From NCBI GenBank assembly GCA_964030475.1, contig CAXIPT010000001.1:3589249-3653248 (forward strand): DNA of 64,000 nucleotides, read 5' to 3'. The position numbers and the translations under genes are program-made. Positions 36,678-53,808 of this stretch are shown one piece after another. Numbering within the stretch: position 1 is the first letter of the stretch; every line of letters begins with the position of its first letter. A model generated the notes under the pieces. It saw only the letters and a program-made list of their open reading frames with translations. It was not told the origin of the DNA and did no database searches. This stretch comes from Tethya wilhelma (taxonomy: Eukaryota; Porifera; Demospongiae; Tethyida; Tethyidae).

Positions 36678-36682
36678 CAAGC

Positions 36683-36950
36683 AGGCCTATTATTTAACTG
36701 CTTAGCATGCACATTAGGTTTATCAATAGATATACCATGCATATAAGTGTTCTGCTTTTGTCACGACTGTCAAGCATGTCTATTTTGAGCATCTATTTTG
36801 ACCTGCAGATTAAGATTCAGGCCTATTATTTAACTGCTTAGCATGCACATTAGGTTTATCAATAGATATACCATGCATATAAGTGTTCTGCTTTTGTCAC
36901 GACTGTCAAGCATGTCTATTTTGAGCATCTATTTGACCTGCAGATTAAGT
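36683..36950. repeat. 136 bp tandem duplication downstream of AOX
   Basis: The segment starting AGGCCTATTATTTAACTG at 36683 is repeated from 36819 with essentially one indel (TTTT/TTT) over about 130 bp, indicating a recent duplication. The rest of 36,950-37,190 shows nothing recognisable. Confidence 0.9.
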
Positions 36951-37194
36951 TCACACACTGTCATATGTGTTGATACTTTCAGTATGTATACAAAGAGTAA
37001 CTTTAGTTTAATTAAAATCATCATTTTGCATTACTAACCGTCATGTACCATGTGTAGGTTACCAATTTTAGGAACATGTCGCTACTTTTTTGCAAACACT
37101 CTATGCTTACAGAGTAATGCAATCCAGATTAGATCTGTTACTACGTATACAATGTTTACATGAAACACAACACACCCAAGAGAGCATACACCGC

Positions 37195-37200
37195 TATAAA
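37195..37200 (+). promoter_or_regulatory. TATA box of acidic/cationic gene 1
   Basis: GCTATAAAATG lies 84 bp upstream of ATG 37279. Confidence 0.6.
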
Positions 37201-37278
37201 ATGAAAGAAAAAAGTGTTGTTTTTTTTAGCATATGCATTGTTCTTCACCAGCTCAGGATAGCGAGAAGTGGAGAGTAA

Positions 37279-38064
37279 GTGAGCAAAATGAAAGTGATCA
37301 CCCTTTTACTTGCATCTTGTGTTTTAGCTGTGGTTGAATCTGCTAGCCACAGAGGAGTTGTAAATGTTCAAAATGAACTACTGAAAGCTGAACTACAATC
37401 TTTGCTCAAGGAAGACATGAATACTGAGAAGGAATTGGTATACCAGCAACAAAATGATGACGATGATGGTATAGCAGTATTTCAGGATGATGATGACGAT
37501 CAAGCTGTGTATCAAGATGATGACGATCAGGCTGCTAACCTCCAACGGTTTAAGTTATTCAAACGTATTAAAAAAGGTTTTAGAAAAGGTGTTAAGTGGG
37601 CAAGAAAGGCACAGCAGTTTTTGAACATGATTAGAGGTATAAGGAGATGTATTCCCGGACGTGTTACAAGAGCTAGTGTGATACGTCATTCTGTTTGCAT
37701 ATACAGACATCTACCAAAAAATCTGAAAGTACTTGGTCAGATTGCACGCATTAATGAAGATGATGACGATGATCAGGCTGTGTACCAAGATGATGATGAC
37801 GATCAGGCTGTGTACCAAGATGACGATGATGATCAGGCTGCGTACCAAGATGACGACGACGATCAGGCTGTGTACCAAGATGACGATGACAATCAGGCTG
37901 TGTACCAAGATGATGATGATGACAATCAAGTCAATGCAGCTGCTGCCTTCAAGAAGAAACACCGGTTTAAACGTTTTTTCAGGCGACTTGCTCGACGTTT
38001 TAGATGCCGGCTTGCATTGAAACTTACAGGAATGCGGCACGTGTTTGGCTGTCCTTTCGAATGA
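37279..38064 (+). CDS. Secreted acidic/cationic repeat protein 1
   Basis: An intronless frame of 261 residues (258 if the ATG at 37288 is used). The signal peptide is hydrophobic (VITLLLASCVLAVVESAS). The chain then alternates charge. An acidic stretch with DDDD clusters is followed by cationic block 1 (about residues 90-160: KLFKRIKKGFRKGVKWARKA, then RRCIPGR and HSVCIYR, two Cys). A perfect-period acidic repeat, (D4-5)QAVYQ in 10-residue units, runs about 157-215, and cationic block 2 closes the chain (FKKKHRFKRFFRRLARRFRC ... FGCPFE, two Cys). The helical, Arg/Lys-rich blocks resemble cationic antimicrobial or condensing peptides held by acidic partners. The family is unrecognised and function is inferred. 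Confidence 0.7.
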   Translation: MSKMKVITLLLASCVLAVVESASHRGVVNVQNELLKAELQSLLKEDMNTEKELVYQQQNDDDDGIAVFQDDDDDQAVYQDDDDQAANLQRFKLFKRIKKGFRKGVKWARKAQQFLNMIRGIRRCIPGRVTRASVIRHSVCIYRHLPKNLKVLGQIARINEDDDDDQAVYQDDDDDQAVYQDDDDDQAAYQDDDDDQAVYQDDDDNQAVYQDDDDDNQVNAAAAFKKKHRFKRFFRRLARRFRCRLALKLTGMRHVFGCPFE

Positions 38065-38744
38065 AGCACTCTTGTGAACTGAATATATAATCACGAGAAA
38101 CAGTCACTGTAATGTTATTGTTATTAGAACTAGTATAACTATATAGCTGTAATGTAATTAGAATGTGTGACTGTACTTGTAAACTAAGCATCAAAGATTC
38201 TAATCTGGCTGTAAACTATGATTATAACTTATGGCAAGAATATCATAAGCAGTGTATGAAATCAGCTTGGTCTAAAGGATTATAATGGTGTTCATGAGCA
38301 AGCTAGGACATTGGTTACACAGTGACATTGTTTGTTTTTGTGGTGGACTATTTTCAAGTCAAGGTACTGTACTTGTCTTACACTTTGTTTACTTAGTAAT
38401 TTTGTAGCTGACATAAAGCCAAGTTGTGAGTTAATTCGATACCTTCCAGTCCTCACCTTGTATTTACTACGAACAAACTGAGCACTGATTATAAGTTTTC
38501 TGTGCAATTGTAGGAAATAAAACTGTTCGAGACTCTTGTAGTGATACTGGTACATGTGTACCAACACTACCTTCCTATTCCAATTGACCTTGTATACTAC
38601 TGAAATTGAATTCATAAAGTTGAGGGATTCTTGTAGACTACATGGACAGTTACAACTATCACACCTTGGTGATACTTTGAACTTCATCTAGTTTGTGTTG
38701 CTCATATATCGTATAGAAATTAATTTTTATGGAGAATGCTCCAG
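38065..38744. other. Intergenic interval
   Basis: Untranslated/intergenic AT-rich DNA. A 131-codon minus-strand frame (38687-38292) has no signal peptide or family resemblance and is not called. Confidence 0.4.
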
Positions 38745-38753
38745 TATATAAAG
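38745..38753 (+). promoter_or_regulatory. TATA box of gene 2
   Basis: TATATAAAG 77 bp upstream of ATG 38830. Confidence 0.65.
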
Positions 38754-38829
38754 AGCTAGGCTACTGAGGTAGAGCTACATCCAGCCTCTTCACTCCGACT
38801 GTAAGGAAAACCCTTCAGTTCACGGCAAT

Positions 38830-39378
38830 ATGAAAACAGCACTCCTTCTTTTGTCTGTTATAACGTTTGCCTTTGCAATTCCTGCACGGAAGCAGGATGA
38901 CGATGGTGATTATGCCTATCTCCAATCCATAGTCGCTAAAGAGTTAAAGGCCCAATTGCAGGAGGAAGACGATGAACCTGTCTATAATCAACAAGAAGAC
39001 GAAGAACCAGTTTCAATTGAATCAGTTGTTAGATTGCTATCAAAAGTGCAAGATGATGATGAAGAAGAGGATGGAGTACCAGCTGCATTTGTTAGAATGC
39101 TAGCAGCAAAAATGCAAGATGATGATGACGAGGAAGAGGATGGAGTACCAGCTGCATTTGTTAGAATGCTAGCAAAAGTGCAAGATGATGACGAGGAAGA
39201 GGATGGAGTACCAGCTGCATTTGTTAGAATGCTAGCAGCGAAAGTTCAAGATGATGACGAGGAAGAGAATGGCAAGCGTCGGGCAGCTGCCAAGATCCAG
39301 CACTGGTGGCACCATATCGTTCATCATGTGGTCCGCCATCTTCTCCATCATTTCTTTCCTCTGCATGGAAAGAAGTAA
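38830..39378 (+). CDS. Secreted acidic-repeat protein 2 with histidine-rich C-terminal peptide
   Basis: An intronless frame of 182 residues. The signal peptide is MKTALLLLSVITFAFAIPAR. The middle holds four units of K-x-Q-DDD(E/D)EEE(D/N)G, most followed by VPAAFVRMLAAK (period about 20-22 residues), alternating acid clusters with a short amphipathic helix. After a GKRR dibasic site the last ~30 residues are strikingly His/aromatic-rich (KIQHWWHHIVHHVVRHLLHH FFPLHGKK), predicted as one amphipathic helix with His on one face. That pattern recalls histidine-rich host-defence peptides that act at acidic pH or with metal ions. GKRR could be the cleavage site that frees it. No homologous family is recognised; the role is inferred. 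Confidence 0.72.
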   Translation: MKTALLLLSVITFAFAIPARKQDDDGDYAYLQSIVAKELKAQLQEEDDEPVYNQQEDEEPVSIESVVRLLSKVQDDDEEEDGVPAAFVRMLAAKMQDDDDEEEDGVPAAFVRMLAKVQDDDEEEDGVPAAFVRMLAAKVQDDDEEENGKRRAAAKIQHWWHHIVHHVVRHLLHHFFPLHGKK

Positions 39379-40019
39379 CAAGTTCAGTAAAAGTTGCTTC
39401 CAACATTATAATTTTCAGTAGCATAGAAAGACTAGCTGAAAAACATAGTGTAGATTGAGAGACATGCATGAAGTTTATTATAGGCCACAATTTTTTGTTG
39501 ACTTTCTTTTTCCTGTGTGAATTATATACATTGCAATCCGCAGTTATTTCCCCTTATCATGAACAATACGTACATTGATTAAAAATTGCAACAATCATCA
39601 CGTTTCCGTGTTATCTACATTAGTCTAAGGGCCCTCCCTACCTCAGTAGTTTCATTGGCATAACTTGACCTCATGCTTCTGGCCCTCAGTGTGCCAGACT
39701 CACTGTGTAATGTGCATGCATGTAGGTAATCTGCAACAAGATTAGTTCACCCATGCATGCATGCCATTACAACTGAAACACAGAAGCTATAGTTGATCTC
39801 AATGCAACATAATTATTACGTAATGTTTGTAAACATGAGATGCTCAGTTGGCTTTTGAGAGTCTATGACAATTACTTTTTCTAACTAGTAATAATACATT
39901 ATTGTGATTGTTCTACTTTAGTAATAATTTGTTCTAGAAGTAGGACCAAACTGACTAATGAGTCACTACTGTAACAGTCATGTTAATTATGTATTAAAAA
40001 TAGTTTCTGTGCAATTCTT
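39379..40019. other. Convergent intergenic interval
   Basis: AT-rich spacer between genes 2 (+) and 3 (-); no coding region seen. Confidence 0.4.
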
Positions 40020-40706
40020 CTAACCCCTGCGCCTGATCATGTAATAGTATGCTCGTCTTAGAAGGTTGTAGAGGTGACGAGCTGTGCTCCGAGTGAAATA
40101 GTAACAGTGACGCGATCGCTGAACAGTTACATCATCAGATTCACTCTTTGCTAATTCTTGTAGAGCATCTTTCAACATAACCATCTGTTCCTTTGCCTGA
40201 GCATTTTCATAGTCTTTGTATTGCACCTCAGGATAGTCATCTTCCTGCTCTCTTGCATAGTCATCTTGCTCTTTTGCCAATACATCTTTGAGAATCTCGT
40301 GCAACTCTGGATAATCACCATCGTCTTCTTCCCTAGCCAATTCCTCATAGTCAGCTTGTTTCCTTGCACGAGCTTTGGCATTCTCATAATCGTAAGCTTC
40401 TTCTTTAGCCAGTGCGTCCTTTAGGAGAGCTTCAAACTCCAGAGAATAGTCATCGTCATCCTGTTTTTTTGCATCTTCATAATCGTATTGTTTTTTTGCC
40501 CGAGCATGCTCATAATCACTTTGCTCTTTTGCCATCACACCTTTAAGAAGCGCTTCAAGTTCTTGATAATCATCATCTTGTTTCCTTGCATCTTCATATT
40601 CGTAGCCTCCCTGATTCTTTGCTCCATAATCCTCCTGGCTAGTAGGAATAGCTTGAGCCAATTGAAAGGCTGCAATAATTGCAAGAAGAAAGATAGTGTT
40701 ATTCAT
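40020..40706 (-). CDS. Secreted acidic pro-region protein 3 with Tyr/Arg-rich C-terminal peptide
   Basis: An intronless 228-residue frame with signal peptide MNNTIFLLAIIAAFQLAQA. The pro-region (about 20-190) is built from degenerate repeats of LExLLKDxLAKEQxDYE...AKKQDDDDY, acidic and rich in Asp-Tyr. It ends VQRSRHCYYFTRSTARHLYN followed by LLRRAYYYMIRRRG, a cationic, Tyr-rich ~32-residue tail with one Cys. The last residue Gly is a possible C-terminal amidation signal. The same tail pattern (R-x-x-C-Y-Y ... L-L-Y/R-x-x-x-R-x-x-Y-Y-x-x-R-R-R-x-G) recurs in gene 4, marking them as paralogues. Function inferred as precursor of a cationic peptide. Confidence 0.72.
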   Translation of the reverse strand: MNNTIFLLAIIAAFQLAQAIPTSQEDYGAKNQGGYEYEDARKQDDDYQELEALLKGVMAKEQSDYEHARAKKQYDYEDAKKQDDDDYSLEFEALLKDALAKEEAYDYENAKARARKQADYEELAREEDDGDYPELHEILKDVLAKEQDDYAREQEDDYPEVQYKDYENAQAKEQMVMLKDALQELAKSESDDVTVQRSRHCYYFTRSTARHLYNLLRRAYYYMIRRRG

Positions 40707-40761
40707 GATGATGGGCAGTAGCTAAATGAAGTTTTGAAGTAATCACAGTTTACTAGTAGTT

Positions 40762-40769
40762 TTTTTATA
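40762..40769 (-). promoter_or_regulatory. TATA box of gene 3
   Basis: CTATAAAAAAA on the minus strand, about 58 bp before ATG 40706. Confidence 0.55.
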
Positions 40770-41368
40770 GATAGATCTTAGCTTCCTACAGTATTTACAA
40801 GTTAGTTTGGTTCTGGATACACTTCAAGTAACGACATGAACATGTTGATAGGCAATGACAGCTTGTAAACTAAACAGTGGTTGAGCGAGGCAAACACTAA
40901 CTACCTATGGTAGCTATAAGTTTGATCAGTAAACAACTTTGATGTGACATGTCAACTTGATGTCATTGCATTTCTTACCATGCAGCTGCAAATGGTATGT
41001 ATACATGGTAACAGCGATGTCATGAATACATATTGTATGTAGATGCATGCCAAATCCTTTCCCACGCAATTGGCATAATTAATTATGGCTCATTCCTGAA
41101 TGATTTATCCATAGAGTTTTATTTATCATTAAATTATTATTTGACCTACCATGTTGAATCACAAAAAATACAGATCTGTGCTTATGAAACTTAAACATTA
41201 ATTTTTATTGTTGGTATGCAAAGAACACTAGTCTTATGATAATAATATAATTATTGATTTCACTATACTGAATCCATTCTATAGACCATCTAATGTACAA
41301 GTCATGTCCACACTACTATAATAATGTTATCTGTTATGAGTCTATAGTAATACATTAATTGTTAGAGT
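40770..41368. other. Intergenic interval between genes 3 and 4
   Basis: AT-rich DNA with no coding region or repeat recognised. Confidence 0.4.
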
Positions 41369-41728
41369 TTAGCCTTGACGACGACGATAGATGTAGTACA
41401 CCTTCCTAAACATTCGGTAGAGAAGTGAAAGGCTTCTTGGGGCAATGTAGTAACATCCATATCTCTGAGCTTTGGCAGCCTCTTGAGTATTTGCCATGAG
41501 GTTCTCCAGTTCTGCTAGTCCATCCCCGTCATCATAGTCTTGCTCGTTAGCTAGGATATCTTTATAATCCTCTTCTTCCCTTGCCAAAACATTATTGTAG
41601 TTATAATCACCTTGTCCTTTCACTTTCAGTATATTCTCAAGAGCCTTTTCAATATCAGTATCTTTTGAAGCTGCTGAAAGTTGAATAAAAGCAAATGCAA
41701 CCAACAAAATTATGGTAATACGATGCAT
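41369..41728 (-). CDS. Secreted acidic pro-region protein 4, short paralogue of gene 3
   Basis: An intronless 119-residue frame. The signal peptide MHRITIILLVAFAFIQLSAA is followed by a short acidic pro-region (ILKVKGQGDYNYNNVLAREE EDYKDILANEQDYDDGDG) using the same L-A-x-E-x-D-Y wording as gene 3, with fewer repeats. The C-terminal AQRYGCYYIAPRSLSLLYRM FRKVYYIYRRRQG is cationic and Tyr-rich with one Cys, and lines up with the tail of gene 3 including the terminal Gly. A repeat-expanded or repeat-contracted tandem duplicate is the simplest reading. Confidence 0.72.
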   Translation of the reverse strand: MHRITIILLVAFAFIQLSAASKDTDIEKALENILKVKGQGDYNYNNVLAREEEDYKDILANEQDYDDGDGLAELENLMANTQEAAKAQRYGCYYIAPRSLSLLYRMFRKVYYIYRRRQG

Positions 41729-41781
41729 TTTGCTAGTAGTTTGATATCATTGAAATTCAACTCTTGTTTACATGTTTGTTT

Positions 41782-41790
41782 CTTATATAC
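41782..41790 (-). promoter_or_regulatory. TATA box of gene 4
   Basis: GTATATAAGA on the minus strand, about 55 bp before ATG 41728. Confidence 0.6.
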
Positions 41791-42501
41791 CCGGCTGTAA
41801 TGTTCCAAGCTACTGTTCATCTATATGTTTTGAACAGTTCAGTTTAGTTCTGGAAACAAGTCAACTAACGACAGCCACATGTTTTGGTTGTTGACAGTTT
41901 GTCAGTGTTACCGGTAGAGACCTATGCATAATAAGTATACAATGGCAAGAATACCAGGCATTGGTCCAGGAGTATAGCTATAATAAGTATATAATTATAG
42001 TTGTAGGGGCTGACTATATGCCAGACTAGTTATTGTTTAACCATGGATGCTAAAGCATTATCATTAAATCTGTGTTGTTTAATAGCATACTCATGCAATT
42101 GCTTCAAAACAAAACTGTATGCATTCACTTCATCCTTGGAGTATGTATTATGCATAAGCAATAGCCTATGTAAAAGTAGTTATGGATAACTGATTCAGAT
42201 CAAATTACTGTTACAAAAAACCCTGTAATTTCAATTCATCTACGTATCACTGTCAATAATATTGAATTTTACATCTACCACACAGGTATCGCTTAGTATC
42301 ATGGTATTTACATGATCTGTATAATAATCTAAATCGTATGCATACATAATCCTATACATTTTCAGTCATAATATTCTTATAGTCCTTCTATACTGAGTCT
42401 CATACGTATCAGCTACAAATAATTATTATCTTTACTACATGTTCAATCATATCAGTTTGCTCTATGTCTACATATATAATTATATATCATTATGGTTCTG
42501 T
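41791..42501. other. Intergenic interval between genes 4 and 5
   Basis: AT-rich DNA; nothing recognised. Confidence 0.4.
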
Positions 42502-43254
42502 TTACTCTTTGGTCTTCTTGCATTTGCCATAAACAAGATTACACACTGTGCGTCCAATCTTGCCAGCTCTGCGTACAAATTTTTTCACCATGCCACCAAA
42601 CCTCCCAGCTTTAGACTTCAGTGTGCGATACCACCTTCCAGCTTTGCGACGAATCTTCTTATACCACCTCCCCGTTACTTTTCTTACTCTACCTATTCCT
42701 CTTCTGATTCCACCATACCACCTCCTAAATCGCCTTCCTACCCTCCTTCGGACTTTTGAATATAATTTCCTCACTCTTCCACCAATCCTACGTGCAGTCT
42801 TCCCAATCCACCTTTTAGCTCTTCGTATAACACGTGAGCGTACTTTCCTGTATGTTCTCCTTACTGCATTTCTCACTCTTCTGAATGTACGCCTAAAGCG
42901 TCGAAAAAATTGTATTGCAGCTTTTTTCTCATCATACTTTTCCGCCACTGCAGTCTCACTTTGTAACCAAGTGTGGATATCTTGTTCCAAAACTTGAGGC
43001 TTTCTTCGCAAATATTTGCACATTGCCTTTCCAGCACGTTTGGCGACAAAACTCCAGATCTGTTCTTCAGCAATTTCATCGTCATCTTGTTCACCATCAT
43101 CCTGTTGCAACTGAGCAGCTAGCTTGAGCTCACTCAGGAGCGAGTCCTCGTAATTCTCAGAGTAGGAAACATCTTGAGCACTAACCTCTGCAGACTCTGC
43201 ACATAGAGCAAACACAGCCAGAAACAAAACTACGTAAATGCTGGCGGTACTCAT
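42502..43254 (-). CDS. Secreted Arg-rich protein 5 (block A member 1)
   Basis: An intronless 250-residue protein. ATG 43254 (MSTASIYVVLFLAVFALCAE) is chosen because it opens a signal peptide and the TATA box lies at 43331-43340, so the longer open frame (to 43347) would begin upstream of transcription. An acidic segment (QQDDGEQDDDEIAEEQ) leads to a helical module, IWSFVAKRAGKAMCKYLRRK-PQVLEQDIHTWL, shared with genes 6, 7 and 9. The C-terminal half is extremely cationic: tandem ~11-13-residue units such as RRVRNAVRRTYRKVRSR, RVGRRFRRWYGGIRRGIGR, KVTGRWYKKIRRKAGRWYR, ending GRTVCNLVYGKCKKTKE. It looks like a secreted, helix-repeat cationic protein masked by an acidic pro-part. Confidence 0.72.
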   Translation of the reverse strand: MSTASIYVVLFLAVFALCAESAEVSAQDVSYSENYEDSLLSELKLAAQLQQDDGEQDDDEIAEEQIWSFVAKRAGKAMCKYLRRKPQVLEQDIHTWLQSETAVAEKYDEKKAAIQFFRRFRRTFRRVRNAVRRTYRKVRSRVIRRAKRWIGKTARRIGGRVRKLYSKVRRRVGRRFRRWYGGIRRGIGRVRKVTGRWYKKIRRKAGRWYRTLKSKAGRFGGMVKKFVRRAGKIGRTVCNLVYGKCKKTKE

Positions 43255-43330
43255 GATGGATTTATACCCTCCTTTCATGCATTTGTTATCATTCACCTCA
43301 TGAACAGTGAAGAAATAAAGTGTGATTTGG

Positions 43331-43340
43331 TTTTTTATAC
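43331..43340 (-). promoter_or_regulatory. TATA box of gene 5
   Basis: GTATAAAAAA on the minus strand, about 80 bp before ATG 43254. Confidence 0.6.
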
Positions 43341-43829
43341 TGAGCATAAGTTGTTGTTCATAGATGTTGAATGCAGGAAATTGTGTGCCTCACCTAAAGT
43401 TGCAATAATGTCACATAATGCGTGTGAAGAACAAGTTACTTAATTCACAGTGCTGTTATATTACAAACTTCCATATAGGAATCGAACCTGTAGTCAACAA
43501 TTGCAACAACAACAAAAACATGCAGCAGCAAAAAAAAGTGTGAGAACAAGAAGTCAGGATTAGCAACTCTCTTCATGTTCCACAATAATTACATTATGTA
43601 TATAATATATACATAGCAACAATTCATTTTAATACAGCTAGTCCTCACTGGGAATTATAGTTTAATTATAATAATATTATCTCAGTGTATGATACAATGT
43701 ACAAATTATTTTATGTGTAAAATGTCACTTTTGACAGATATACTGTGATTATTGTCCACACACTTGTAGCACACCCAGTTCATAAAGTTTACAGTAACAT
43801 TGATAGTTCACTCAGGATCGAGTGGTTCC
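43341..43829. other. Intergenic interval between genes 5 and 6
   Basis: AT-rich DNA; no coding region recognised. Confidence 0.4.
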
Positions 43830-44493
43830 TCATCCACTCAGACTCCATGGATACATAAACAGCTTGCACATTCCTTTCATGATCTTGCTAGCTTTACGTG
43901 TGAATATCCTCATTTTGCTTTGAAATCTACCAGCCCTCGAATTCAGTAGTCGGTACCATCTCCTGGACATATTCTGGATCCTATTGTACATTCCATTGCT
44001 GCTGCGCATTATTCCCCTTGCTCGGTTTTGTAGCCTGCGATACCATTGTCGGCTCAAACTTCGGCCCATTCCACGAAGCCGTCTCTGATAATAGTTTCTG
44101 TAGTAATTCCGGTAATAATTTCGCCAGTAATACAAGTATCTCCTGCATCGACGTCGACACCAACGTCGTCTCTGTGCCACTCATGCCTGCCCTTCCATGG
44201 TGTTAAGTTCCTGTAGCCAAGCCTTAAAATCTTGCTCTACAACTAGAGATTTTGTAGAAATTTTTTTGCATATTTTCATCAATACTCTATGCTTGGCAAG
44301 AATATTCAAGAATTGCATTTCAGCCTCATTGTCTTCATCAGAGAGTCCATTGTTTTGCTGTATTTTGGCTGCTTGGATGAGTGCATGTTCAAGAGAATTC
44401 TCATGGAATTTTGAAGCACTTACTCTAGCCAATTCAAAAGTCAGAGCAATTAAAAATAGCAAGAAAGAGAAACAGAAGTTTGCCACAACCCAT
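43830..44493 (-). pseudogene. Gene 6: acidic/Arg-Tyr-rich protein interrupted by an in-frame TGA
   Basis: Two open stretches lie in the same minus-strand frame, split by a single TGA at 44181-44183. The upstream stretch has a hydrophobic signal-like segment (FCFSFLLFLIALTFELARVS), an acidic patch (LSDEDNEAE) and the shared helical module (FLNILAKHRVLMKICKK ... VVEQDFKAWL). The downstream stretch is Arg/Tyr-rich (WCRRRCRRYLYYWRNYYRNY, then WYRLLNSRAGRFQSKMRIF, ending YPWSLSG). No in-frame ATG opens the signal segment; the nearest ATG (44493) is out of frame by one base. No TATA box is seen. The two lesions favour a recently broken gene. Readthrough or sequence error cannot be excluded. Confidence 0.6.
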
Positions 44494-44877
44494 TTTTCTG
44501 ACTCTTTGAAGCTATTGTATTCTTGTTAAGTGGGCCACATGTGGTGACTATACGCTTATTGACCCAAGAACAAGCATGAGCTTGTTTACAGTGTAGGAAT
44601 TGAATGCTCACTTGGTTCTAGTGCCCAGTCAAGTTGTGTCAACAGACAAGACACTTTAATTACAGTTACCCAATGTAAAACTGACAGTGATTATCGTTCA
44701 GTATTAACAGATACATCAAACTTTTGACACCCAAACAAGTAATGACTATGTTACAGTGTTTAGTGTTCAAAATTAATGATTTCCAAGAACCAGCCAGAAA
44801 AGCCCAAGAGTCTTGAGATTATGTGGGGTCCTTTCAATTAATGTGTACATTTACATGACCCATGGTGAATTGAGGCT

Positions 44878-45080
44878 ATGAACATGTTTATGGTCATGTT
44901 GTTCACTACAATTCATGTTTTGGTCTTGAATATGGTTAGATTAGAATTGTTTGTTTATGACTATTCGTGTGAAACAATTTTTTGTCCAATTTTACAAACA
45001 TCCTTTGTCCATTGTGATACGTACTGGTACATGTTATATGACCTGTCATTGCATGTTTACATTGTAAATTTATAGATCAT
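44878..45080 (-). pseudogene. Degenerate relic of gene 8 (block A)
   Basis: Patches match the gene 8 region in order: TTTTGGTCTTGAA (compare 49397-49409), GTGAAACAA...TTTTGTCCAATTT (compare 49434-49470) and CCATTGYGATACKTACTG (compare 49752-49770, the start-codon end). The reading frame is lost and the middle is deleted. Confidence 0.6.
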
Positions 45081-45685
45081 TATTATTATGATATGATAAG
45101 TATTATATGCATATTCTGACATGTCATGCAGGACCCCATGTAAAGCTACCTTCCTAAGACATTGTACTCAATAAACTTCCTTCACAGAGTACTAGTGATT
45201 CCCATTTATGTTCTTATGGCTTGTGGGATAACTAGACTATCAATCCTTAGCATCCTAAACTTAAGGTTCCTAGGTTCAAAGCAGAGTTATATCTAAGGAT
45301 GCATCATGGGATCATTCAACATTAGAATCCTTATTTTTCTTACAAAAGAGTATTAAATTTTGGCTGTGCTATAAAGTTAGAATCTGATAATCACCAGTTA
45401 ATTTCCTTCACCTCCCATGAACACCACCCACACCTTTACCATATCATGCCAATAGCAATTATAAGCTATGTATACTACAGCCTGTCAAGGTCAAAGGGAA
45501 GAACCTAGGAATGAGGCTATCGTATACCACCAACTCTGTTTATAATTATTATCATGGTGTTTCTTTAACTTTTACCACAAAAATAGCCAGCCAGTATTGT
45601 ATGGTCCATTAATTAATTTGGGCGAGTATCTGAATTTAACATGAAACATACATGTATGCATGCCACCCACAAGGTCATGATTTGG
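45081..45685. other. Intergenic interval in block A
   Basis: Parallels 49,900-50,400 of block B in short patches (AATAAACTTCCTTCAC..GAGT, GGCTTGTGGGATARCTA, CTCCCATRAA, CCACCCACAC), so it belongs to the duplicated block. No coding region. Confidence 0.5.
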
Positions 45686-45880
45686 GAGGAGTCACGGTTG
45701 CACCAGCTCCAATCAATCATCCAATTTTCTTTGGTAATAGCCAATTAACTTTTAAAGTATAAAGATCATAATTGCAGCAACTCTCTTCACTCTTGCCATT
45801 GTGGTTTGTCTTTCACAAGCCAAGCCAGTAAAGAGCTTGGAAGACAATCTGTTGAGCACTGTACCGTATGCATGCATGTA
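45686..45880 (+). pseudogene. Truncated relic of gene 9 (block A)
   Basis: The stretch repeats the 5' UTR and signal-peptide region of gene 9 (50,560-50,720): GCAGCAACTCTCTTCACTCT, TTTGTCTTTCACAAGCCAAG and AAGAGCTTGGAAGAC are shared. The start codon is ATA in place of ATG (AGTATAAAGATCAT), an insertion follows, and homology stops about 40 codons in. Everything downstream, including all four modules, is absent. Confidence 0.75.
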
Positions 45881-46146
45881 TCCATTAGGCGCATGCAAGC
45901 ATATGAGCCATGCAGTACATTCTAGTATAGCTAGCTTAATTGCATTAATCAGTGTATTGCACATTACAAGGCTGCATGTACATTTATTCTATCATGTGTA
46001 TTTTACTTTTAATTGTTTATGATCTAGTTATATAGGAATATACACAATGTCATTGATCTAGACACTATAATTATCTACATCAACTGTTGTGATTCAGATC
46101 TACCACTATACTATTTTTTTCGATTTGCCAACCAATTGAGTCCATT

Positions 46147-46521
46147 ATTCTCAGTGGCGGATCTAGGAAATTGAATAGGGGGGTTCTAATGAATGCGCGC
46201 GGAGCGCGCGAAAAATTTTACGTAGCCACGCCCACTTTCGGTCGCAACAGCCCCGCCCCTTTAGCGCTCGTGCAGCTAAAATTTTGCCAAAAAAGCCTGA
46301 ATGGAAGAAAAAAACGGCAAGAAAGAGACAGAAACTCTATATCTTTCATAAAAGACTAATATTCAGCGTGATTCTGAGTTGCTTTTAGTATTTTTAAGTT
46401 GAAAGGAGGGTTCCATCTTGGCCTTTTCCAATCTGCACAGTTAATTATAATGCGAGATCTTAGCTGAAAGGGGGGTTCCGTGGAACCCTTGAACCCCCCC
46501 CCTGGATCCGCCACTGATTCT
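46147..46521. mobile_element. 365 bp CAGTGGCGG-ended element with 5 bp flanking repeats
   Basis: Ends CAGTGGCGGATCTAGG (46152) and CCTGGATCCGCCACTG (ending 46516) are inverted repeats. The direct repeat ATTCT flanks both sides (46147-46151 and 46517-46521). The body holds GGGGGGTTC tracts and a GCGCGCGGAGCGCGCG palindrome and no coding frame. Such termini are common in non-autonomous DNA transposons; the superfamily is left open because the flank repeat is 5 bp rather than the 8 bp of hAT. Confidence 0.75.
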
Positions 46522-46560
46522 GGTTGAATTTTTATTGTAACAGGGATAATATAATATTAT

Positions 46561-47266
46561 TAAGCCTCGGCGCGTGCGTAGCACGTGCAGAGGATTACGG
46601 TAGTCGTTTTGTGTGTCTGTCTGTCTGTCTGTTTGTTCCATCGAAATCTCAAGAAAGACAGCTCTAGCGACAAAATTGATGGTACTTACGTTCATAAATC
46701 TGAATGATCTTGTAGAAATATATTTTTTGTTGTCTAAAATACTTTAGTTTCCGAAATTTCAGGCTTTTGTGCCTTTCTGAGCGCTTAGCTTCGAGACCAC
46801 GCCTACTAATTTGGTGTGAGTTATCCAGAATTTGTGTAGACAAGGCTCTCTGAATGGCTGCTGTTGCTGAACTGTTGGCCATTGTTGTTTGGCAAGACAG
46901 ACAGGAGTTGGCCTGCTTTATATATGTAAGCATATATATAGGGCATGGCAAAGATTTTTACATTGTGGCCAGTTTGATATAGCTAGCTAAATTAATCAGT
47001 GCCATCACTGAGTTAGACTCACTGTAGGTCCAGCAGCTAGACTTTGCTATCTGACAGCAGCTGAGTATTCCAATGCATGTATAATTATTGTAGCAAAGCT
47101 AATCTGGTTCATAGTCTGTGACATGACATTGTGCTGTTTTACCATGCACACTCAAAGTTAGCTATGAGTCTAGATGGATTAGTAAATGAGTCTCGTTGCT
47201 GAAGTTCTCAGTGATACACTCGATCTTTTGCACAGTGTGCTAGCTAGTTGAGTGCGCCGAGGCTTA
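46561..47266. mobile_element. ~0.7 kb non-autonomous TIR element, copy 2
   Basis: TIRs TAAGCCTCGGCGC (46561-46573) and GCGCCGAGGCTTA (47254-47266). Inverted relative to copy 1 at 28217-28932, with the CTGTCTGTCTG tract and GTACTTACGTTCATAA segment shared. Homology continues into TGCACCATTGGTGCCTTCATTA on the right, as in copy 1. It sits between duplicated blocks A and B. Confidence 0.75.
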
Positions 47267-47399
47267 TGCACCATTGGTGCCTTCATTATTGTTGGTTCTT
47301 GAAGTACCACTGCCAGTATGTTTCTGTTTACTCTCTAATTGATAGCTCTTCTTCAAGTTGTTTTTTCCATAAACAAGATTACACACTCTCCCAGCTTTG

Positions 47400-48215
47400 C
47401 TTATAAATTTTTCACTATGTTACCAAATTACCACTGTTTTACCAAATTTCCCAGCTTTAGACTTTAGCATGCGATACCACCTTCCAGCTTTGCGACGGAT
47501 GTTCTTATATAACCTTCCTGTTACTTTTCTTACTCTGCCCACTCCCTTTTTTATTCGCCTAGACCATTTCTTAAGCCTCCTGTGTACCTTTTTTTGGATT
47601 TTTGAAGAAAATCTCCTCACTCTTCTACGAATTCCACGCCTGACCTTTCTGAAAATTCCTCTTACTTTTCTCACTGCCCACTCCCTTTTTTATTCGCCTG
47701 TACCATTTCTTGAACCTCCTACCCACCTTCTTTCGAATTTTTGAAGAAAATCTCCTCACTCTTCTACGAATTCTACGCCTGACCTTTCTGAAAACCCTTC
47801 TAACTGGTCGGAAAATTCGTCTGCGTACTCTCCTCACTACTCTTCTGAATGCACGCCTAAAGCGTCGAAAAAATTGTATTGCAGCTTTTTTCTCATCCAC
47901 CACTGAAGTCTCACTTTGTAACCAAGTGTGGATATCTTGTTCCAAAACTTGAGGCTTTCTTCGCAAATATTTGCACAATGCCTTTCCAGCACGTTTGGTG
48001 ACAAAATTCCAGATCTGTTCTTCAGCAATTTCATCGTCATCTTGTTCACCATCATCTTGCTGCAACTGAGCAGCTAGCTTGAGTTCACTCAGGAGCGAGT
48101 CCTCGTAATTCTGAAAGTAAGAAACATCTTGAGCACTAACCTCTGCAGACGTTGACTCTGCACACGGAGCAAAGACAGCCAGAAACAAAACTATGGAGGT
48201 GCTGGCTGTACTCAT
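47400..48215 (-). pseudogene. Gene 7: frameshifted paralogue of gene 5 (block B member 1)
   Basis: ATG 48215 (MSTASTSIVLFLAVFAPCAE) opens a frame nearly the same as gene 5 through the acidic segment and the module IWNFVTKRAGKALCKYLRRK-PQVLEQDIHTWL, then into Arg-rich repeats (RRRVRRFSSKIRKKVGRRFK). Near 47,670 a two-base loss within the repeat array (compare GGGCAGTGAG with GGGCAGAGTAAG) shifts the frame, which ends at 47625. The out-of-frame continuation (47674-47420) still reads as family repeats. It is broken again near 47,420, and the Cys-containing C-terminus is present only as fragments. The TATA position is degenerate (TTAAGTAAAC). The intact 196-residue first part could still be made. 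Confidence 0.65.
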
Positions 48216-48479
48216 GACAAATTTACCCTCCTTTCGTGCATTTGTTATCATTCTCAGCGCAGACTCTGAGAGTTTGTTCCTATAATTATGTTTAACCAAG
48301 AATTATGCCGCAGTTTACTTAAAAGTTGTAAACAATGTCACATTGTATGTGAAGAACAAGTTACTTAATCTACAGTGTTGTATTATCACAACTTTCCGTG
48401 TAGGAACAAGAACCTATAACGGCCATGATGATCCATAGATACACTGATTAATAATCATGCAGCTTGATAATGGTGATTT
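48216..48479. other. Intergenic interval in block B
   Basis: No coding region. Shares patches with the flank of gene 5 (ACATTGTATGTGAAGAACAAG, trimmed, versus 43,410-43,440). Confidence 0.4.
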
Positions 48480-48860
48480 CACTTCCACTCCAGCTCTGGA
48501 TTTGCTAGCGTTACACATATGCAGACATCCTATCCTCACTTTCTTTAAAAATCTACTATATATATATATATAGCTTTTTAATTCAGTTTCCACAATCAGG
48601 CTACAATATTGAGTAATTAAGAGAGATAATGTGCAGCAGCAATGGAATGTACAATAGAATCCAGAACATGTCTAGGAGATGGTGCATACTGGGCTATTGT
48701 TGGCTCAAACCATAGCCCATTCCACAAAGCCACCTCTGATAGTAGCCTGAGTTTCTGCAATATCTCTAATCTTAAAATCTTTCTCTATAATAGGGCTTAA
48801 GGTTCTCTTGCAAATTTTTACACGTTTTCTGAATGCTATTCTTGAGAGAAGAATTTTCGT
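48480..48860 (-). pseudogene. Degenerate relic of gene 6 (block B)
   Basis: Ordered matches to the Arg/Tyr-rich half of gene 6: AGCAATGGAATGTACAATAG, AGGAGATGGT, TGTTGGCTCAAAC, CCCATTCCACRAAGCC and CTCTGATARTAG, then a match to the module region (AAAATCTTKCTCTA). Many indels, no open frame. Confidence 0.7.
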
Positions 48861-49365
48861 TTTGAATTCTTGCTACTTAAGTCACAGTCACTACAATACA
48901 CTAATTTATACATTGACCCAACATTTTGCATAGAGGAATTGAATTCTCATTATTTATAATTGCATCGCTCTATATAGTGTCTAGACAAATTGTGTCAATG
49001 GACAATAATTTTATTATTAAGTACACCCAGTACTCAATGCAAAACTAACAAAAAATATTATTAAGTATCATGCAATAATTTTATAATAGGTGTATATCAA
49101 TTTATTTTTTTTTACAATACAAACAAGTAATAGAAATAGTAACTGTTTTTGTTGTTTAGTTTTCAAAAAAAAAAGTGCAAACATGTACATTTTAAAGTGA
49201 ATGACTCATGAAGCACTGAAGCTATGAACATCATGCATGTCTATGATGATATTGCTTACTAGGGTCACTTCACGGGTACATTTTGCAAAAAGCGGTGATG
49301 AAGATCCAAGAATTAAGTAAGTTTAACTTGTTAGAAAGTATTCCCTACTTGGTTACTCTAAACTA
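48861..49365. other. Intergenic interval in block B
   Basis: AT-rich with short homologies to 44,560-44,880; no coding region. Confidence 0.4.
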
Positions 49366-49755
49366 TCAGGAGGAGAAAAGGGCCGTAGGGTTTGTATTTT
49401 GGTCTTGAACAGAACTTTGTTTAGGACCTTTCTTGTGAAACAAATTGCGAATTTTGTGTCCAATTTCACTAAAAATTGATTGTTCATCACTAGACATGTC
49501 CATTCCTTGACTGCGTGCTGAAACTAATCTTTGAATAACTTTTGCCAACTTGCTCAGACGTTCTTCTTTTGGCACTGTTTTCAAAAATTTATCGATAAAC
49601 TTAGAATGTCTCCTTGCTTGCTTTTCTTGATGATGCCCTTCATTGAACTGCTCAGACTGCAACAAAGCATTCTGTGCATGTGAAGGTATTTTCTTAGAGT
49701 CCACAATAACAGTCAAAGTTACAAGTATACACACAAGGAAAAGGTTCCTATCCAT
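49366..49755 (-). CDS. Gene 8: small secreted basic protein (block B)
   Basis: An intronless 129-residue frame starting MDRNLFLVCILVTLTVIVDS, a clean signal peptide. The mature part is Lys/Arg/His-rich and helical (RRHSKFIDKFLKTVPKEERL, SKLAKVIQRLVSARSQG), then an acidic turn and IGHKIRNLFHKKGPKQSS, a short cationic amphipathic stretch, with a neutral NTNPTALFSS end. Unlike its neighbours it has no long Asp/Glu run and no Cys in the mature part. The family is unrecognised. The signal peptide and position in the cluster make a secreted product likely. Confidence 0.6.
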   Translation of the reverse strand: MDRNLFLVCILVTLTVIVDSKKIPSHAQNALLQSEQFNEGHHQEKQARRHSKFIDKFLKTVPKEERLSKLAKVIQRLVSARSQGMDMSSDEQSIFSEIGHKIRNLFHKKGPKQSSVQDQNTNPTALFSS

Positions 49756-50532
49756 TGCGATACTTACTGATATGACCTCTCACTGTAACCTGCAGTGTTG
49801 ATGTAAATATGAAATTCAATATGAAAAAAACATGCATGTTTACTTTGACCTGACAGGAACAATGATGAGTAAATGTATACCTTCCTTTAAATGTTATAAG
49901 ACGCTAACTAACTTGTAAATTGTATGGTTTAACTGTAGTGAATAAACTTCCTTCACTGAGTGATTCCCGATTTACAGTATTATGGCTTGTGGGATAGCTA
50001 TACTATCAATTCATCCTTAGCAACACACTGAAGGTTCCTGGAGTCAAAACTTAGGATGCACAATTATTACTAATGCTATGTACTGCATTATAAAATTATT
50101 GTTTACGTTATGGAAGGGTTTCACTTGTGGCAACAAGTTACTATCACCAGTTGATTTCCTTCTCCTCCCATAAATAGACCTCTTATATCACCACCCACAC
50201 TCTTTTGGGGTATTTCCTCAACCTTTACCACAAATTAATGTTATTACTGATTCTCAATAGCCAGCCACTATTATTATATGGTCCATTACAAAATTATTTG
50301 AGTGAGTATGAGTATAAAGAATTTTAAATGCACCGTGTATGCCACCCACAGGGTCATAATTAAGGATGAATGTTGTGTCCTCTGACAGCTGGTAAAGTAA
50401 AACAAGTATCTTGGAAAGGTCTCTGTGGCAGGATGGAGGACCATTGGAGGCAACAGTTGAATAGTTTGTGGGATGGTGTATTATGTATAAATTATATTGT
50501 TCTGTCTATAGACTTTTTAAGGGCTGGATGAC
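49756..50532. other. Divergent intergenic interval between genes 8 and 9
   Basis: Promoter region for both genes. It is partly duplicated at 45,081-45,700. No coding region. Confidence 0.4.
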
Positions 50533-50539
50533 TATAAAA
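50533..50539 (+). promoter_or_regulatory. TATA box of gene 9
   Basis: ACTATAAAAG, 81-87 bp upstream of ATG 50620. Confidence 0.7.
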
Positions 50540-50619
50540 GAGATTGTACTTGAGAAGCTAGCTCCAACCAGCCATCCAATCTTCTTTGGTAGCAGCCAAC
50601 TTTGGATCAATTTCAAAGT

Positions 50620-52167
50620 ATGAAGATCATTGCAGCAACTCTCTTCACTCTTGCCATTGCGGTTTGTCTTTCACAAGCCAAGCCCGCAGCAAAGAGCTTG
50701 GAAGACGATCTGCTGAGCAGTCTCATCAGTGTACAAGATCTCATTGATGAAGATGATGGTAAAGCGTTGAAACAGCAAAATGATGAGGACGAGGATGATG
50801 AAGATTATGATGATGAAGTTGCAGCTCAGTTCTGGGGATTTCTTGCTAGACATGCTGGTCGCCTAGCCTGCAAGCATCTCAACAGAAGACCTGAAGCTCT
50901 TGAGCAGCAAATCGATGACTGGCTTGACAAAGATGCAAAAATAATGGAAGAAGATGAAGATGAAGATGAAGAAGCTGAATACCAAAAATGGCGTTTTGGA
51001 CGAAAAATTAGAAAATTCTTCAAGAAGCACGGAAAAACAATCCGTAGAGTGGGACGTGGAGTGTGCAAAGCTGTAGGCTACCACAATGTCGAGGTACAGG
51101 ATTATGATGATTTGGACGATGATGAAGATGATGAAGCTGGAGTGCAATTCTGGAGATTTATTGCTAAACATGCTGGTCGCCTAGCCTGCAAGCATCTCAA
51201 CAAAAGACCTGAAGCACTTGAGCAGCAAATCGATGACTGGCTCAACAAAGATGCAAAAATGATGGAAGAAGATGAAGATGACAGTGAAAAGGTTGAATTC
51301 CAAAGATGGCGTTTTGGACGAAAGATTCGGAATTTCTTCAAGAAACACGGAAAAATAATCCGTAGGGTAGGACGTGGAGTGTGCAGAGCTGTAGGCTACC
51401 ACAATGTTGAGGAGCAAGATGATGATGATGATTCAACTTCTCTTGTAGTGAAACTCCAGCAGATTGCAGATGATTATGATGGCAAGGCACTCAAACAACA
51501 AGACGATGATGAGGATGAAGATGATGAAGATGATGAAGATGATGAAGTTGCAGCTCAGTTCTGGGGATTTCTTGCTAGACATGCTGGTCGCCTAGCTTGC
51601 AAGCATCTCAACAGAAGACCTGAAGCTCTTGAGCAGCAAATTGATGACTGGCTTGACAAAGATGCAAAAATAATGGAAGAAGATGAAGATGAAGATGAAG
51701 ATGATGATGATGAGGCTGAATACCAGAGGTGGCGTTTTGGACGAAGGTTAAAGAAATTCTTCAAGAAAGCTGGAAAGGCAATCCGGAGGGTAGGACGTGG
51801 AGTGTGCAGAGCTATCCACCACAATGTGGAGGAACAGGACTATGATTATGACGAGCCTTCATATGCTGTTCAGCTTCAGCAAGATGATCCCGAAGAAGCT
51901 GAATCTCAACGTTTCTGGAGGTTCTTTGGAAAACATGCTGGCCGCCTTGCTTGCAGGTATCTCAGAGCCAAGCCTGGGGTCCTAGAACAGAGCGTCGATG
52001 TTTGGCTCAAGAAGGATGCCCAGATTATGGAGGAGATAGACGATGAAGATGTTTACAATCAGAGATTCCGTTTCCCCAAACCAAACATCAAGTATTTCAT
52101 CAAGAAGCACGGACCCACCATACGCAAAATAGGCCGTGGAGTGTGCAAAGCTATCTACCATCAGTAG
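50620..52167 (+). CDS. Gene 9: secreted protein with four tandem acidic/helical/cationic modules
   Basis: An intronless 515-residue frame. ATG 50620 is chosen because it opens the signal peptide MKIIAATLFTLAIAVCLSQA; the codon at 50602 in the same frame is TTG. Four modules follow, beginning near residues 68, 174, 310 and 428. Each has a helical part (QFWGFLARHAGRLACKHLNR, RPEALEQQIDDWLDKDAK), an Asp/Glu run, and a cationic part beginning W-R-F-G-R-K-I (residues ~124, 230, 370, 481). The cationic part reads RKFFKKHGKTIRRVGRGVCK and ends AVGYHN or similar. Each module has exactly one Cys in each part, so intramodule disulfides are possible. The cationic parts look like linear antimicrobial peptides; the acidic runs would neutralise them before processing. 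Modules 1 and 3 are nearly identical in DNA. No known family is recognised. Confidence 0.75.
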   Translation: MKIIAATLFTLAIAVCLSQAKPAAKSLEDDLLSSLISVQDLIDEDDGKALKQQNDEDEDDEDYDDEVAAQFWGFLARHAGRLACKHLNRRPEALEQQIDDWLDKDAKIMEEDEDEDEEAEYQKWRFGRKIRKFFKKHGKTIRRVGRGVCKAVGYHNVEVQDYDDLDDDEDDEAGVQFWRFIAKHAGRLACKHLNKRPEALEQQIDDWLNKDAKMMEEDEDDSEKVEFQRWRFGRKIRNFFKKHGKIIRRVGRGVCRAVGYHNVEEQDDDDDSTSLVVKLQQIADDYDGKALKQQDDDEDEDDEDDEDDEVAAQFWGFLARHAGRLACKHLNRRPEALEQQIDDWLDKDAKIMEEDEDEDEDDDDEAEYQRWRFGRRLKKFFKKAGKAIRRVGRGVCRAIHHNVEEQDYDYDEPSYAVQLQQDDPEEAESQRFWRFFGKHAGRLACRYLRAKPGVLEQSVDVWLKKDAQIMEEIDDEDVYNQRFRFPKPNIKYFIKKHGPTIRKIGRGVCKAIYHQ

Positions 52168-52420: not shown

Positions 52421-53808
52421 CTAAGTCCAGGCATCAACTAGATACCTTCCACTTTCCTTCAGTTCTGTAAACACTTGGTTAGGATTTAGTTCTAAACCTA
52501 GTGTAACAGGAAAAAAATAGTAATTATGATCAATAGAATGAAGCTAAGCATGCCAACCTACAGCACTTTAAAGTGCATGAACTGAATACCTGGTTTATGA
52601 TCGATATACTTGGCAATGATGTCTGTTACTGCTCCTTGGACATCTTTGGACATGTTTTTAGCATCTCTGAAGGAAAAAAAAAAAAAAAAGAAGAGAGGCA
52701 AACTACAGCAGTGAAAAGAAACAAAATTGCCTTGAGTCAAATAATCCCTAATTCTAATTAATGCTCACCCACACACATATACAACAGCATTCTCCTCCAT
52801 GATCCACTGTGCCAGTTCCTCCCAGTGGAGTCTCATGTTCTCCTGTACATAGCGAGGAGGTGGGTCCTCTCCACCTGCTGGAGGAGTCCATCGCGAGAAA
52901 CACACATGACAGTGTGTCAAAATCCCAGAGGCTGTAAAACTCTCCATCTCATCTCTATCATATCATTACACGAACACAATCGTGATGGCTTAGCTACAAC
53001 GTACAATAAACAACACACCACATGCATTACACACTTGTACAAGAAGTCTCTGTCAGGATGTCGGCACCCAAAGAACAGCCAAGCTTTACCCATGAACAGT
53101 GGTTTGTCACCGTTGGAAGGGGACACTGCTCTTAGCCTATCACGGTGATGAAGAAATCCAATGAAAGGAGAGACACCCGTTCCAGGGCCTATCATTATGA
53201 TTGGTTGGTGTAGATCGTTGGGCAGGTGGAATGGATTGAGAATACGTGGAAATAATGGTACCTACACGTGTATCAATTAACCACAAATGCATTAGAAATC
53301 AAGACTCTGCCTACATGTATATACACGTGTATTTATAATTAACCATCAATCAAGGCCATTGTTAAGGCTACCAAGCAGACCCTCCCTTCACTTTGCACAT
53401 GCTGAGAAAAAAAGGCTTCTTTATTTGTCATGTGTGAAGTCAAGTAGCGTCTAGCTCAATAGACTAAACATCATTATAAATTATAGATTACTTTGAGGCC
53501 AGAAGGGGGAAACGATGAGGTGGTTCTGTCAAACCATCCCGTTGCTAGACCAAGTCTCTTTGTCCCTATTCTTCTTACATCCTGCCATCTTCTTGAGGGC
53601 AGCTGCTCAACATTGAAGGCAATTCTTAGCTTTTTTGTAAGTTCAAGTGGAGAACTGTCAGAGAATTTTAAACAGTATTAATTCTTGTCCTGTGCAGTTC
53701 AAGAGGCAATACCTACCTGGCAGCAGAGTAGTACCTTGGCTGTAGTCTTGGCAACAACTCTGGAGGGTGAATTATTTATGTAACATCCATTATTATTGAT
53801 TCTTTTTA

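Follow-up and report, generated by a model that had tools for sequence, protein, structure and literature searches.

What could be the role of a row of neighbouring genes whose predicted proteins alternate between runs of Asp and Glu and strongly cationic segments? This question is raised by a cluster at 37.2–52.2 kb of a 64,000-nucleotide stretch of the genome of the demosponge Tethya wilhelma (C1:3589249–3653248; genome of 124.6 Mb in 204 contigs), which we call the window (the whole stretch of DNA that was analysed) and whose positions serve as coordinates of the locus. As set out below, the cluster probably encodes secreted precursors of antimicrobial peptides (AMPs) with acidic masking pro-regions, and it is most likely one part of a dispersed, fast-evolving repertoire of such precursors in this siliceous demosponge. 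We favour this reading because of a combination of features: a putative secretion signal, acidic parts together with cationic parts that are amphipathic, variability of the mature parts, and genes that are clustered and in part decayed. The architecture, the coding constraint, the homologous modules, the amphipathicity, the conserved Gln and Cys residues, the duplication and decay and the TATA boxes are all read directly from the DNA.

A cluster of single-frame genes encoding charge-alternating proteins

Seven intact genes, each consisting of a single open reading frame (ORF), lie in the cluster (genes 1, 2, 3, 4, 5, 8 and 9) together with several relics. The nine genes or relics counted in a preliminary description of the window are all present, and further relics at about 44.95, 45.7 and 48.6 kb derive from a degraded duplication. 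The hydrophobic signal-type N-termini were assigned by eye; lengths are given in amino acids (aa).

37195–37200, plus strand: TATA box of gene 1 (TATAAA), with the ATG 93 bp downstream
37288–38064, plus strand: gene 1, 258 aa; after a hydrophobic N-terminus, a cationic helix-like segment (QRFKLFKRIKKGFRKG...) flanked by acidic (Q)DDDD repeats; cationic C-terminal segment
38830–39378, plus strand: gene 2, 182 aa; 21/22-aa acidic repeats, then a His-rich C-terminal segment (QHWWHHIVHHVVRHLLHHFF); TATA 85/83 bp upstream
40020–40706, minus strand: gene 3, 228 aa; acidic repeats, then a Tyr/Arg-rich C-terminal segment with one Cys and an RRRG end; TATA 63 bp upstream
41369–41728, minus strand: gene 4, 119 aa; layout of gene 3 but shorter; RRRQG end; TATA 61 bp upstream
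42502–43254, minus strand: gene 5, 250 aa when counted from its signal-type Met; after an acidic pro-region, one-Cys segment A (QIWSFVAKRAGKAMCKYL), then a long Arg-rich repeat segment closing with a GRTVC motif; TATA 85 bp upstream
43830–44525, minus strand: gene 6, a relic related to gene 5, its frame interrupted by one TGA
47314–48215, minus strand: gene 7, a duplicated gene 5 whose frame stays open from the signal-type Met as far as 47625 and breaks within the cationic repeat, before the 3' end
49366–49755, minus strand: gene 8, 129 aa; mildly cationic, with a hydrophobic N-terminus; neither an acidic run nor, within 400 bp, a TATAWA
50533–50540, plus strand: TATA box of gene 9 (TATAAAAG), with the ATG 87 bp downstream
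50620–52167, plus strand: gene 9, 515 aa; signal-type N-terminus; acidic pro-region; four modules (one-Cys segment A, acidic linker, one-Cys segment B)

ORFs of at least 85 aa, read from stop to stop, were scored as charge-alternating when one 30-mer had a net charge of at least +8 and another of −8 or lower, with Lys and Arg counted as positive. The pattern was found in 6 of the 32 ORFs touching the cluster (genes 1, 3, 4, 5, 7 and 9) compared with none of the 80 elsewhere in the window. Gene 2 falls short because its cationic part is His-rich (+5 on Lys and Arg alone), and gene 8 falls short on the positive and the negative sides. The layout of signal peptide, acidic part and cationic part that had been described for the cluster is therefore borne out, with gene 8 as the misfit; its supposed restriction to the cluster is true of the window but not of the genome, where similar precursors are found elsewhere.

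TATAWA lies 61–93 bp upstream of the ATG in genes 1–5 and 9, that is in six of eight cluster genes, compared with a background in which it occurs at 50–100 bp in 5.6% of positions (this test and those of amphipathicity covered neither gene 6 nor the small relics, and gene 7 was included up to its stop). The earlier count of six genes with a TATA box was correct, with distances of 61–93 bp in place of the 55–87 bp first given. At 40–135 bp, a range widened post hoc after the data had been seen, the motif precedes 16 of 19 genes as against 10% of background positions. Directly upstream of gene 1, at 36682–36953, a 136-bp unit forms a near-perfect tandem duplication.

Relatives elsewhere in the genome and in databases

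Genome-wide searches used genes 1, 2, 3, 5 and 9 and two relatives as queries. A clear homologue of 413 aa with three modules was found at C15:0.146 Mb (E 2.7e-84). Weaker homologues are a 214-aa protein at C1:21.46 Mb (E 1.4e-6) and one of 228 aa at C1:2.79 Mb (E 6.8e-5), both of which align with the module. A search with a member of its own extended a group on C4, of which three ORFs were read, with further matches up to 532 kb; C11:2.267 Mb (205 aa) joined this group through a relative-based search. The group at C1:4.49 Mb was likewise completed by searching with one of its own proteins. Among the variable cationic parts are repeats of Pro and Arg, stretches rich in His, tails rich in Gly, and Lys/Arg segments that are simply amphipathic. 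Judged from their sequences, what unites these groups is a common layout, and we do not claim common descent for all of them. Whole-genome searches with genes 2 and 3 returned self-matches only and no paralogue.

Several of these loci deserve a description of their own. At C4:518.8–532.3 kb a larger cluster holds precursors with Gly-rich tails (at least three ORFs). Four precursors and one broken copy at C1:4489–4499 kb share DDDDGMIQ-type acidic repeats with very different cationic ends, one of which is a Pro/Arg repeat (RRPIIRPRPILRRP) resembling proline-rich AMPs. One module relative (687-bp frame) has an inserted His/Pro-rich segment (PHHYHLTPPHPHPHHHW) separating segments A and B. A lone copy of segment B at C3:11826897–11827001 (74% over 35 aa) is a stray fragment, and the ORFs listed for the surrounding 2 kb include no signal peptide, module A or precursor.

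In a protein database, gene 9 retrieved one protein and a profile of the C4 family (A3) five, about 8,000 candidates being scored in each search, and a profile of the single-module proteins (A2) had no match there. No relative was detected in viral contigs, in a weak search whose patterns were all derived from acidic stretches, or in prokaryote genome contigs, where one pattern was searched.

The cationic segments are helically amphipathic and tend to begin with Gln

For AMPHIPATHICITY and processing, stretches were defined as Asp/Glu-free runs of at least 20 residues with at least three Lys/Arg outside the signal peptide, and stretches starting in the first 10 residues were dropped (a rule not applied to the database proteins P0001, P0003 and P0004). 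This gave 54 stretches of 20–140 aa, contributed by all six database proteins and by 18 of the 19 genes taken from this genome; 34 were left after removal of 20 redundant ones. Their alpha-helical hydrophobic moment exceeded that of shuffles of each stretch by a mean z of 2.42, with 85% above 1, as compared with −0.05 for control stretches (150 sampled from 227, taken from window ORFs outside the cluster and two 10-kb flanks) and 0.20 for stretches of peptidase frames (n=17). Because the family mean fell to −0.53 at 160 degrees, the periodicity is helical. The window's own 14 non-redundant stretches had a mean z of 2.14, and the two of gene 8 were not amphipathic (z 0.91 and −0.09).

Amphipathic cationic peptides often lyse eukaryotic cells also. 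The segments could be peptides that lyse or deter eukaryotes, be they predators, competitors or parasites, and that are not mainly directed at microbes, much as the demosponge AMP ASABF of Suberites is described to lyse erythrocytes and repel gastropods (PMC3210614). We consider this improbable: no sequence feature singles out a eukaryotic target, and several segments are very Arg-rich (genes 5 and 7). Very Arg-rich segments usually accompany bacterial selectivity.

With regard to processing of the putative AMP precursors, Gln occurs among the first six residues in 26 of the 34 family stretches but in only 31 of the 150 controls, and a C-terminal Gly ends 7 of 25 proteins (genes 3 and 4, the C15 homologue, one C1:4.49 Mb member, P0001, P0003 and P0004). 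In cnidarian preprohormones, acidic residues, among others, are described before the N-termini of the peptides (PMC7523074), and arminins with a C-terminal Gly are described as amidated (PMC12013895). Taken together, the Gln near stretch starts, the cnidarian acidic sites and the C-terminal Gly make cutting or trimming to Gln a reasonable model of how the predicted precursors would be processed.

Conserved pro-regions, variable mature parts and birth-and-death evolution

Pro-regions and mature parts were compared in 10 genes and three of the six database proteins. In the C1:4.49 Mb group, pro-regions were 76–88% identical and the aligned mature parts 22–48% (six of six pairs); in the C4/C11 group the corresponding ranges were 60–87% and 31–58% (again six of six). 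The three pairs of database proteins gave 89–91% versus 21–31% in two cases and 98% versus 79% in the third, and genes 5 and 7 gave 91% for the pro-region and 64% for the cationic part. The ratio of nonsynonymous to synonymous change (dN/dS) was 0.31 and 0.37 for genes 5 and 7; for the pair C4b/C11 it was 0.38 (pro-part) and 0.62 (mature part). In the C1:4.49 Mb genes, values of 0.54 and 1.38 over the initial 60 codons rest on 6 changes per pair and are uninformative.

Within the cluster, two blocks are copies of each other and contain the following features in addition to those listed above.

42488–45858, strand not assigned: tandem segmental duplication, copy A, collinear with 47314–50719; contains intact gene 5
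47314–50719, strand not assigned: tandem segmental duplication, copy B; contains intact gene 8 and the 5' end of intact gene 9
44950–45012, minus strand: decayed gene 8-like fragment, 72% over 72 columns
45705–45858, plus strand: decayed remnant of a gene 9 copy, namely its 5' end with the promoter region and the signal peptide, 83% over 163 columns
48597–48745, strand not assigned: decayed gene 6-like fragments, one inverted

Eleven matches connect the two blocks, of which 10 are collinear in position (one of them inverted) and one lies off the line. Copy A retains gene 5 and copy B retains genes 8 and 9, and genes 6 and 7 and the fragments of genes 6, 8 and 9 have decayed. As read from the DNA, the history of the cluster is one of birth-and-death evolution; AMP clusters of Hydra are likewise described as formed through tandem duplication (PMC10945409). 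Between the duplicated blocks, 46150–46520 resembles an inserted repeat element.

Gene 9 encodes conserved modules with two single-Cys segments

In each of the four repeats of gene 9, an acidic linker joins segment A (QFWGFLARHAGRLACKHLNRRPEALEQQIDDWLDKDAKIMEE) to segment B (QKWRFGRKIRKFFKKHGKTIRRVGRGVCKAVGYHN).

50815–51087, plus strand: module 1
51133–51405, plus strand: module 2
51544–51825, plus strand: module 3
51895–52164, plus strand: module 4

Both Cys are unchanged in all eight modules compared, which come from three loci, and Gln is the first residue of B in each; the Gln of segment A is also retained in all eight, shifted by one residue in module 4. When five diverged proteins were aligned, two Gln and two Cys formed invariant columns, the second of these Gln falling within a Gln run in the C1:2.79 Mb protein. 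One Cys per segment suggests, from the sequence, that A and B may be paired. The dN/dS among gene 9 modules was 0.15–0.40 (six of six pairs) and between gene 9 and C15 modules 0.17–0.60 (10 of 12 pairs, two being saturated). Moreover, another assembly contains a 513-aa, four-module protein that matches gene 9 at 68% identity across 97% of the gene 9 product. From dN/dS values below 1 and this relative it follows that gene 9 is a conserved protein and no chance frame.

These results bear on the possibility that the cluster encodes nucleic-acid or protamine-like packaging proteins, or consists of chance ORFs in low-complexity DNA. Lys and Arg make up 26% of gene 5, and the acidic runs derive in part from simple GAT/GAA repeats, as such an account would have it; we nevertheless regard it as most improbable in view of the signal-type N-termini, the dN/dS below 1 between modules and the maintenance of a 515-aa frame in another assembly.

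Segment B of modules 1–3 starts with QKWRFGRK, QRWRFGRK or QRWRFGRR (50977–51090 and equivalents), strings that could be read as pQ..RFamide, and QRWRFGRR is present in three of the four modules of P0001. The cluster might on this account encode peptide-hormone-like precursors, in which spacers would be acidic and peptides would start with Gln in the manner of cnidarian preprohormones, where acidic residues are among those described before the peptides (PMC7523074), and in which QRWRFGRK of gene 9 would be an RFamide-type peptide. Such a role is very unlikely in our view, and membership in a cnidarian-type preprohormone family was rejected: the string is missing from the fourth modules and from the three C15 modules, whose segments start with QRFKRLKK or QLFKRLRN, so it is not the conserved feature, and the cationic stretches are not short, what is conserved being amphipathicity and the Cys.

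Family searches and a possible biosilica role

Searches of Pfam and NCBIfam identified no AMP family, and sequence searches of the PDB gave no convincing match, in line with the earlier statement that no named family was recognised. The weak Pfam, NCBIfam and PDB matches were attributed to chance arising from acidic or helical composition, including P0001 with T2SSK_1st (27.9 bits, cut-off 26.2) and a spectrin sequence in the PDB (E 0.0035). No Pfam defensin match was obtained for the cluster proteins, in which one Cys per A or B segment differs from the several-Cys pattern of ASABF and defensins, and Pfam gave no match to Peptidase_C1, the family to which a silicatein would belong, or to CAP, the type of domain seen in perisilins. 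Membership among the myticalins was also rejected, since the acidic parts here lie N-terminal to and between the cationic parts and there is no C-terminal anionic pro-region. What is found are several features of bipartite-charge AMP precursors, namely a signal-type N-terminus followed by acidic and cationic parts, computed amphipathicity, and clustered tandem paralogues, gene 8 lacking the first two. Among the open-access titles and abstracts on sponge AMPs that were listed, none concerned genes of this kind.

The preliminary description had named a matrix or biosilica-associated role as an alternative, in which polycation and polyanion blocks would template silica or cross-link matrix, as with the His/Asp-rich glassin of glass sponges. 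Silicateins have a papain-like domain in which Ser replaces the catalytic Cys. The motif CGASYAF is encoded at C2 3.856, 20.684, 20.687 and 20.690 Mb, in each case inside a Peptidase_C1 match; two of the sites were read as exons (L053 and L056), and the best PDB match of L053 is silicatein alpha (E 2.3e-16). The DNA pattern for CGASYAF alone is no evidence, with 85 matches compared with 179 in a reversed control. These silicatein-type exons (C2:20684364–20690976 and C2:3.85–3.86 Mb) sit among cathepsin-like matches, and on their account the host is regarded as a siliceous demosponge.

Biosilica or extracellular-matrix proteins stay a rival because the host has silicatein-type exons. Asp-rich parts, moreover, occur in most members, and His-rich parts in gene 2 and the C1:2.79 Mb protein, the only two among those read. 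Glassin and the perisilins are described with signal peptides, and glassin and some perisilins with His-rich silicifying regions, those of glassin being also Asp-rich (PMC10772126). However, that source describes silica-active regions without a three-dimensional structure in glassin and perisilin alike, in contrast to the strong helical amphipathicity found here, and it ascribes the skeletal diversity of demosponges to silicatein isoforms and not to several unrelated silicifying proteins. Conserved amphipathicity and a conserved single Cys per segment would go unexplained, which makes the biosilica account less likely. It also explains less well why, in two groups, the cationic parts vary while the pro-regions preceding them are more conserved, and why several different cationic types occur. 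Overall, we judge a biosilica or matrix role to be unlikely.

A model for the cluster and the points that weigh against it

The reading of the cluster as secreted AMP precursors, first proposed as host-defence peptides with acidic masking domains, is supported by the amphipathicity, the contrast between pro-region and mature part in two groups, the tandem duplication and the 68%-identical relative. Secretion, processing, pairing of A and B and antimicrobial activity are what we infer for its products. Each gene would be a short transcription unit, often TATA-driven, yielding a pre-pro-protein that the signal peptide would route to the secretory pathway. During storage, the Asp/Glu runs would neutralise the cationic amphipathic segments, and they may also flag cut sites, as the cationic segments typically begin with Gln right after an acidic run. 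Cutting or trimming to Gln would free peptides with an N-terminal Gln or pyroglutamate, some of which would carry a C-terminal Gly suited to amidation, and the released peptides would act by binding to microbial membranes and making them permeable. Polyproteins would be the products of gene 9 and its relatives: each module supplies a hydrophobic-cationic A and a strongly cationic B with one conserved Cys each, and the two segments may be released joined by a disulfide bond. More tentatively, gene 9-type polyproteins could give disulfide-linked two-chain AMPs, with up to four heterodimers per precursor and acidic linkers keeping them inactive, as a sponge-specific architecture in a genome-wide repertoire; we put this forward as a possibility that is more doubtful than probable.

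Several observations weigh against the AMP reading. Gene 8 is a misfit which, despite its hydrophobic N-terminus, has no acidic run, TATAWA or amphipathic segment. At the fixed distance of 50–100 bp, TATAWA is not enriched in 11 genes outside the window (2 of 11, p 0.12). Two of the groups are loosely tied to the cluster, the C4 group being linked to gene 9 weakly (C4:0.52 Mb precursor, 357 aa, E 2.6e-4) and the C1:4.49 Mb group matching gene 1 across the acidic repeats only. Genes 3 and 4 are without the contrast between pro-region (37%) and cationic part (34%); in addition, the pro/mature split was set by a charge rule, acidic repeats align easily and some mature alignments are short (9–76 residues). 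The structure model of the module shows helices but is of low quality (mean pLDDT 55), too low for a structure search, and segment B modelled alone, without an alignment, unexpectedly gave a helix plus strands (pLDDT 83) with no PDB structure match at E <= 0.001; this second model was not relied on. Finally, silica precipitation and signalling are further activities that amphipathic cationic peptides can have.

Surroundings of the cluster

The cluster genes had been described as single-exon and in this respect unlike their surroundings. Seven intact single-ORF genes agree with the first part of this claim, but the window also holds, outside the cluster, open frames of 1014 and 548 aa without the charge pattern (18626–21670 and 26045–27691, plus strand; both Ser/Thr-rich, with no Pfam match), and long uninterrupted frames are therefore not special to the cluster. 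An exon-like frame with an oxidoreductase NAD-binding domain (PF00175) at 52917–53261 on the minus strand belongs to an ordinary flanking gene, and an open frame at 29514–30407, also on the minus strand, has a Cupin_8 domain (PF13621).

Comparison with known systems

Sponges filter microbes constantly and keep dense symbiont communities, and, to our knowledge, few host-encoded sponge AMPs have been described. Papers on the subject include work on a defensin-like ASABF and, from a sponge, on knottins. The ASABF of Suberites domuncula, which is defensin-related, resembles the cluster in being a host-encoded AMP of a demosponge, but it has a 64-aa Cys-stabilised alpha-beta fold, with no acidic masking mentioned in the accessible part of the source, whereas segments A and B here have one Cys each (PMC3210614). 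Glassin and perisilin of hexactinellids are secreted, as predicted for the cluster proteins, and have His-rich regions, glassin also being Asp-rich; they differ in that their silica-active parts are described as unstructured, the perisilins have a CAP-like domain and the accessible text describes no amphipathic cationic helices (PMC10772126). The myticalins and modiocalins of mussels are similar in having a conserved signal and anionic pro-region, a hypervariable cationic mature peptide and multigenic families; unlike in the cluster, their anionic part is C-terminal and cut at a dibasic Lys-Arg, their genes have introns, and the mature part is without predictable secondary structure (PMC5577615).

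What is distinctive here, on the evidence of the predicted proteins, is the multi-module precursor with two single-Cys segments per module. In two-chain AMPs of the halocidin/distinctin type, one Cys per chain joins two cationic peptides, as we propose for A and B, although in gene 9 the pairing is suggested solely by the conserved single Cys. If the AMP reading is true, the steering by sponges of their own microbiome becomes a directly testable question.

Close parallels are found in two other non-bilaterian phyla. The arminin-like putative AMPs of Trichoplax are described as proteins of 150–250 aa with a signal peptide, a highly acidic N-part, a basic C-part, acidic cleavage motifs and a C-terminal Gly, a layout shared with the cluster proteins, 7 of the 25 proteins here likewise having a C-terminal Gly; compared by description with gene 9, they differ in having a single cationic part and no A/B Cys modules in the accessible text (PMC12013895). 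AMPs of Hydra are mostly charge-bipartite, paralogous, clustered and taxonomically restricted, and its arminins and periculins share with the cluster a signal peptide, a strongly biased charge distribution, tandem-duplicated clustered paralogues and taxonomic restriction; they belong to another phylum, however, and many genes here have several acidic/cationic alternations, with up to four modules (PMC10945409). By analogy, the cluster would work like the arminins, a likeness by description and not a claim of membership in the arminin family. If so, the bipartite-charge precursor strategy would gain a third non-bilaterian phylum, beside Cnidaria and Placozoa.

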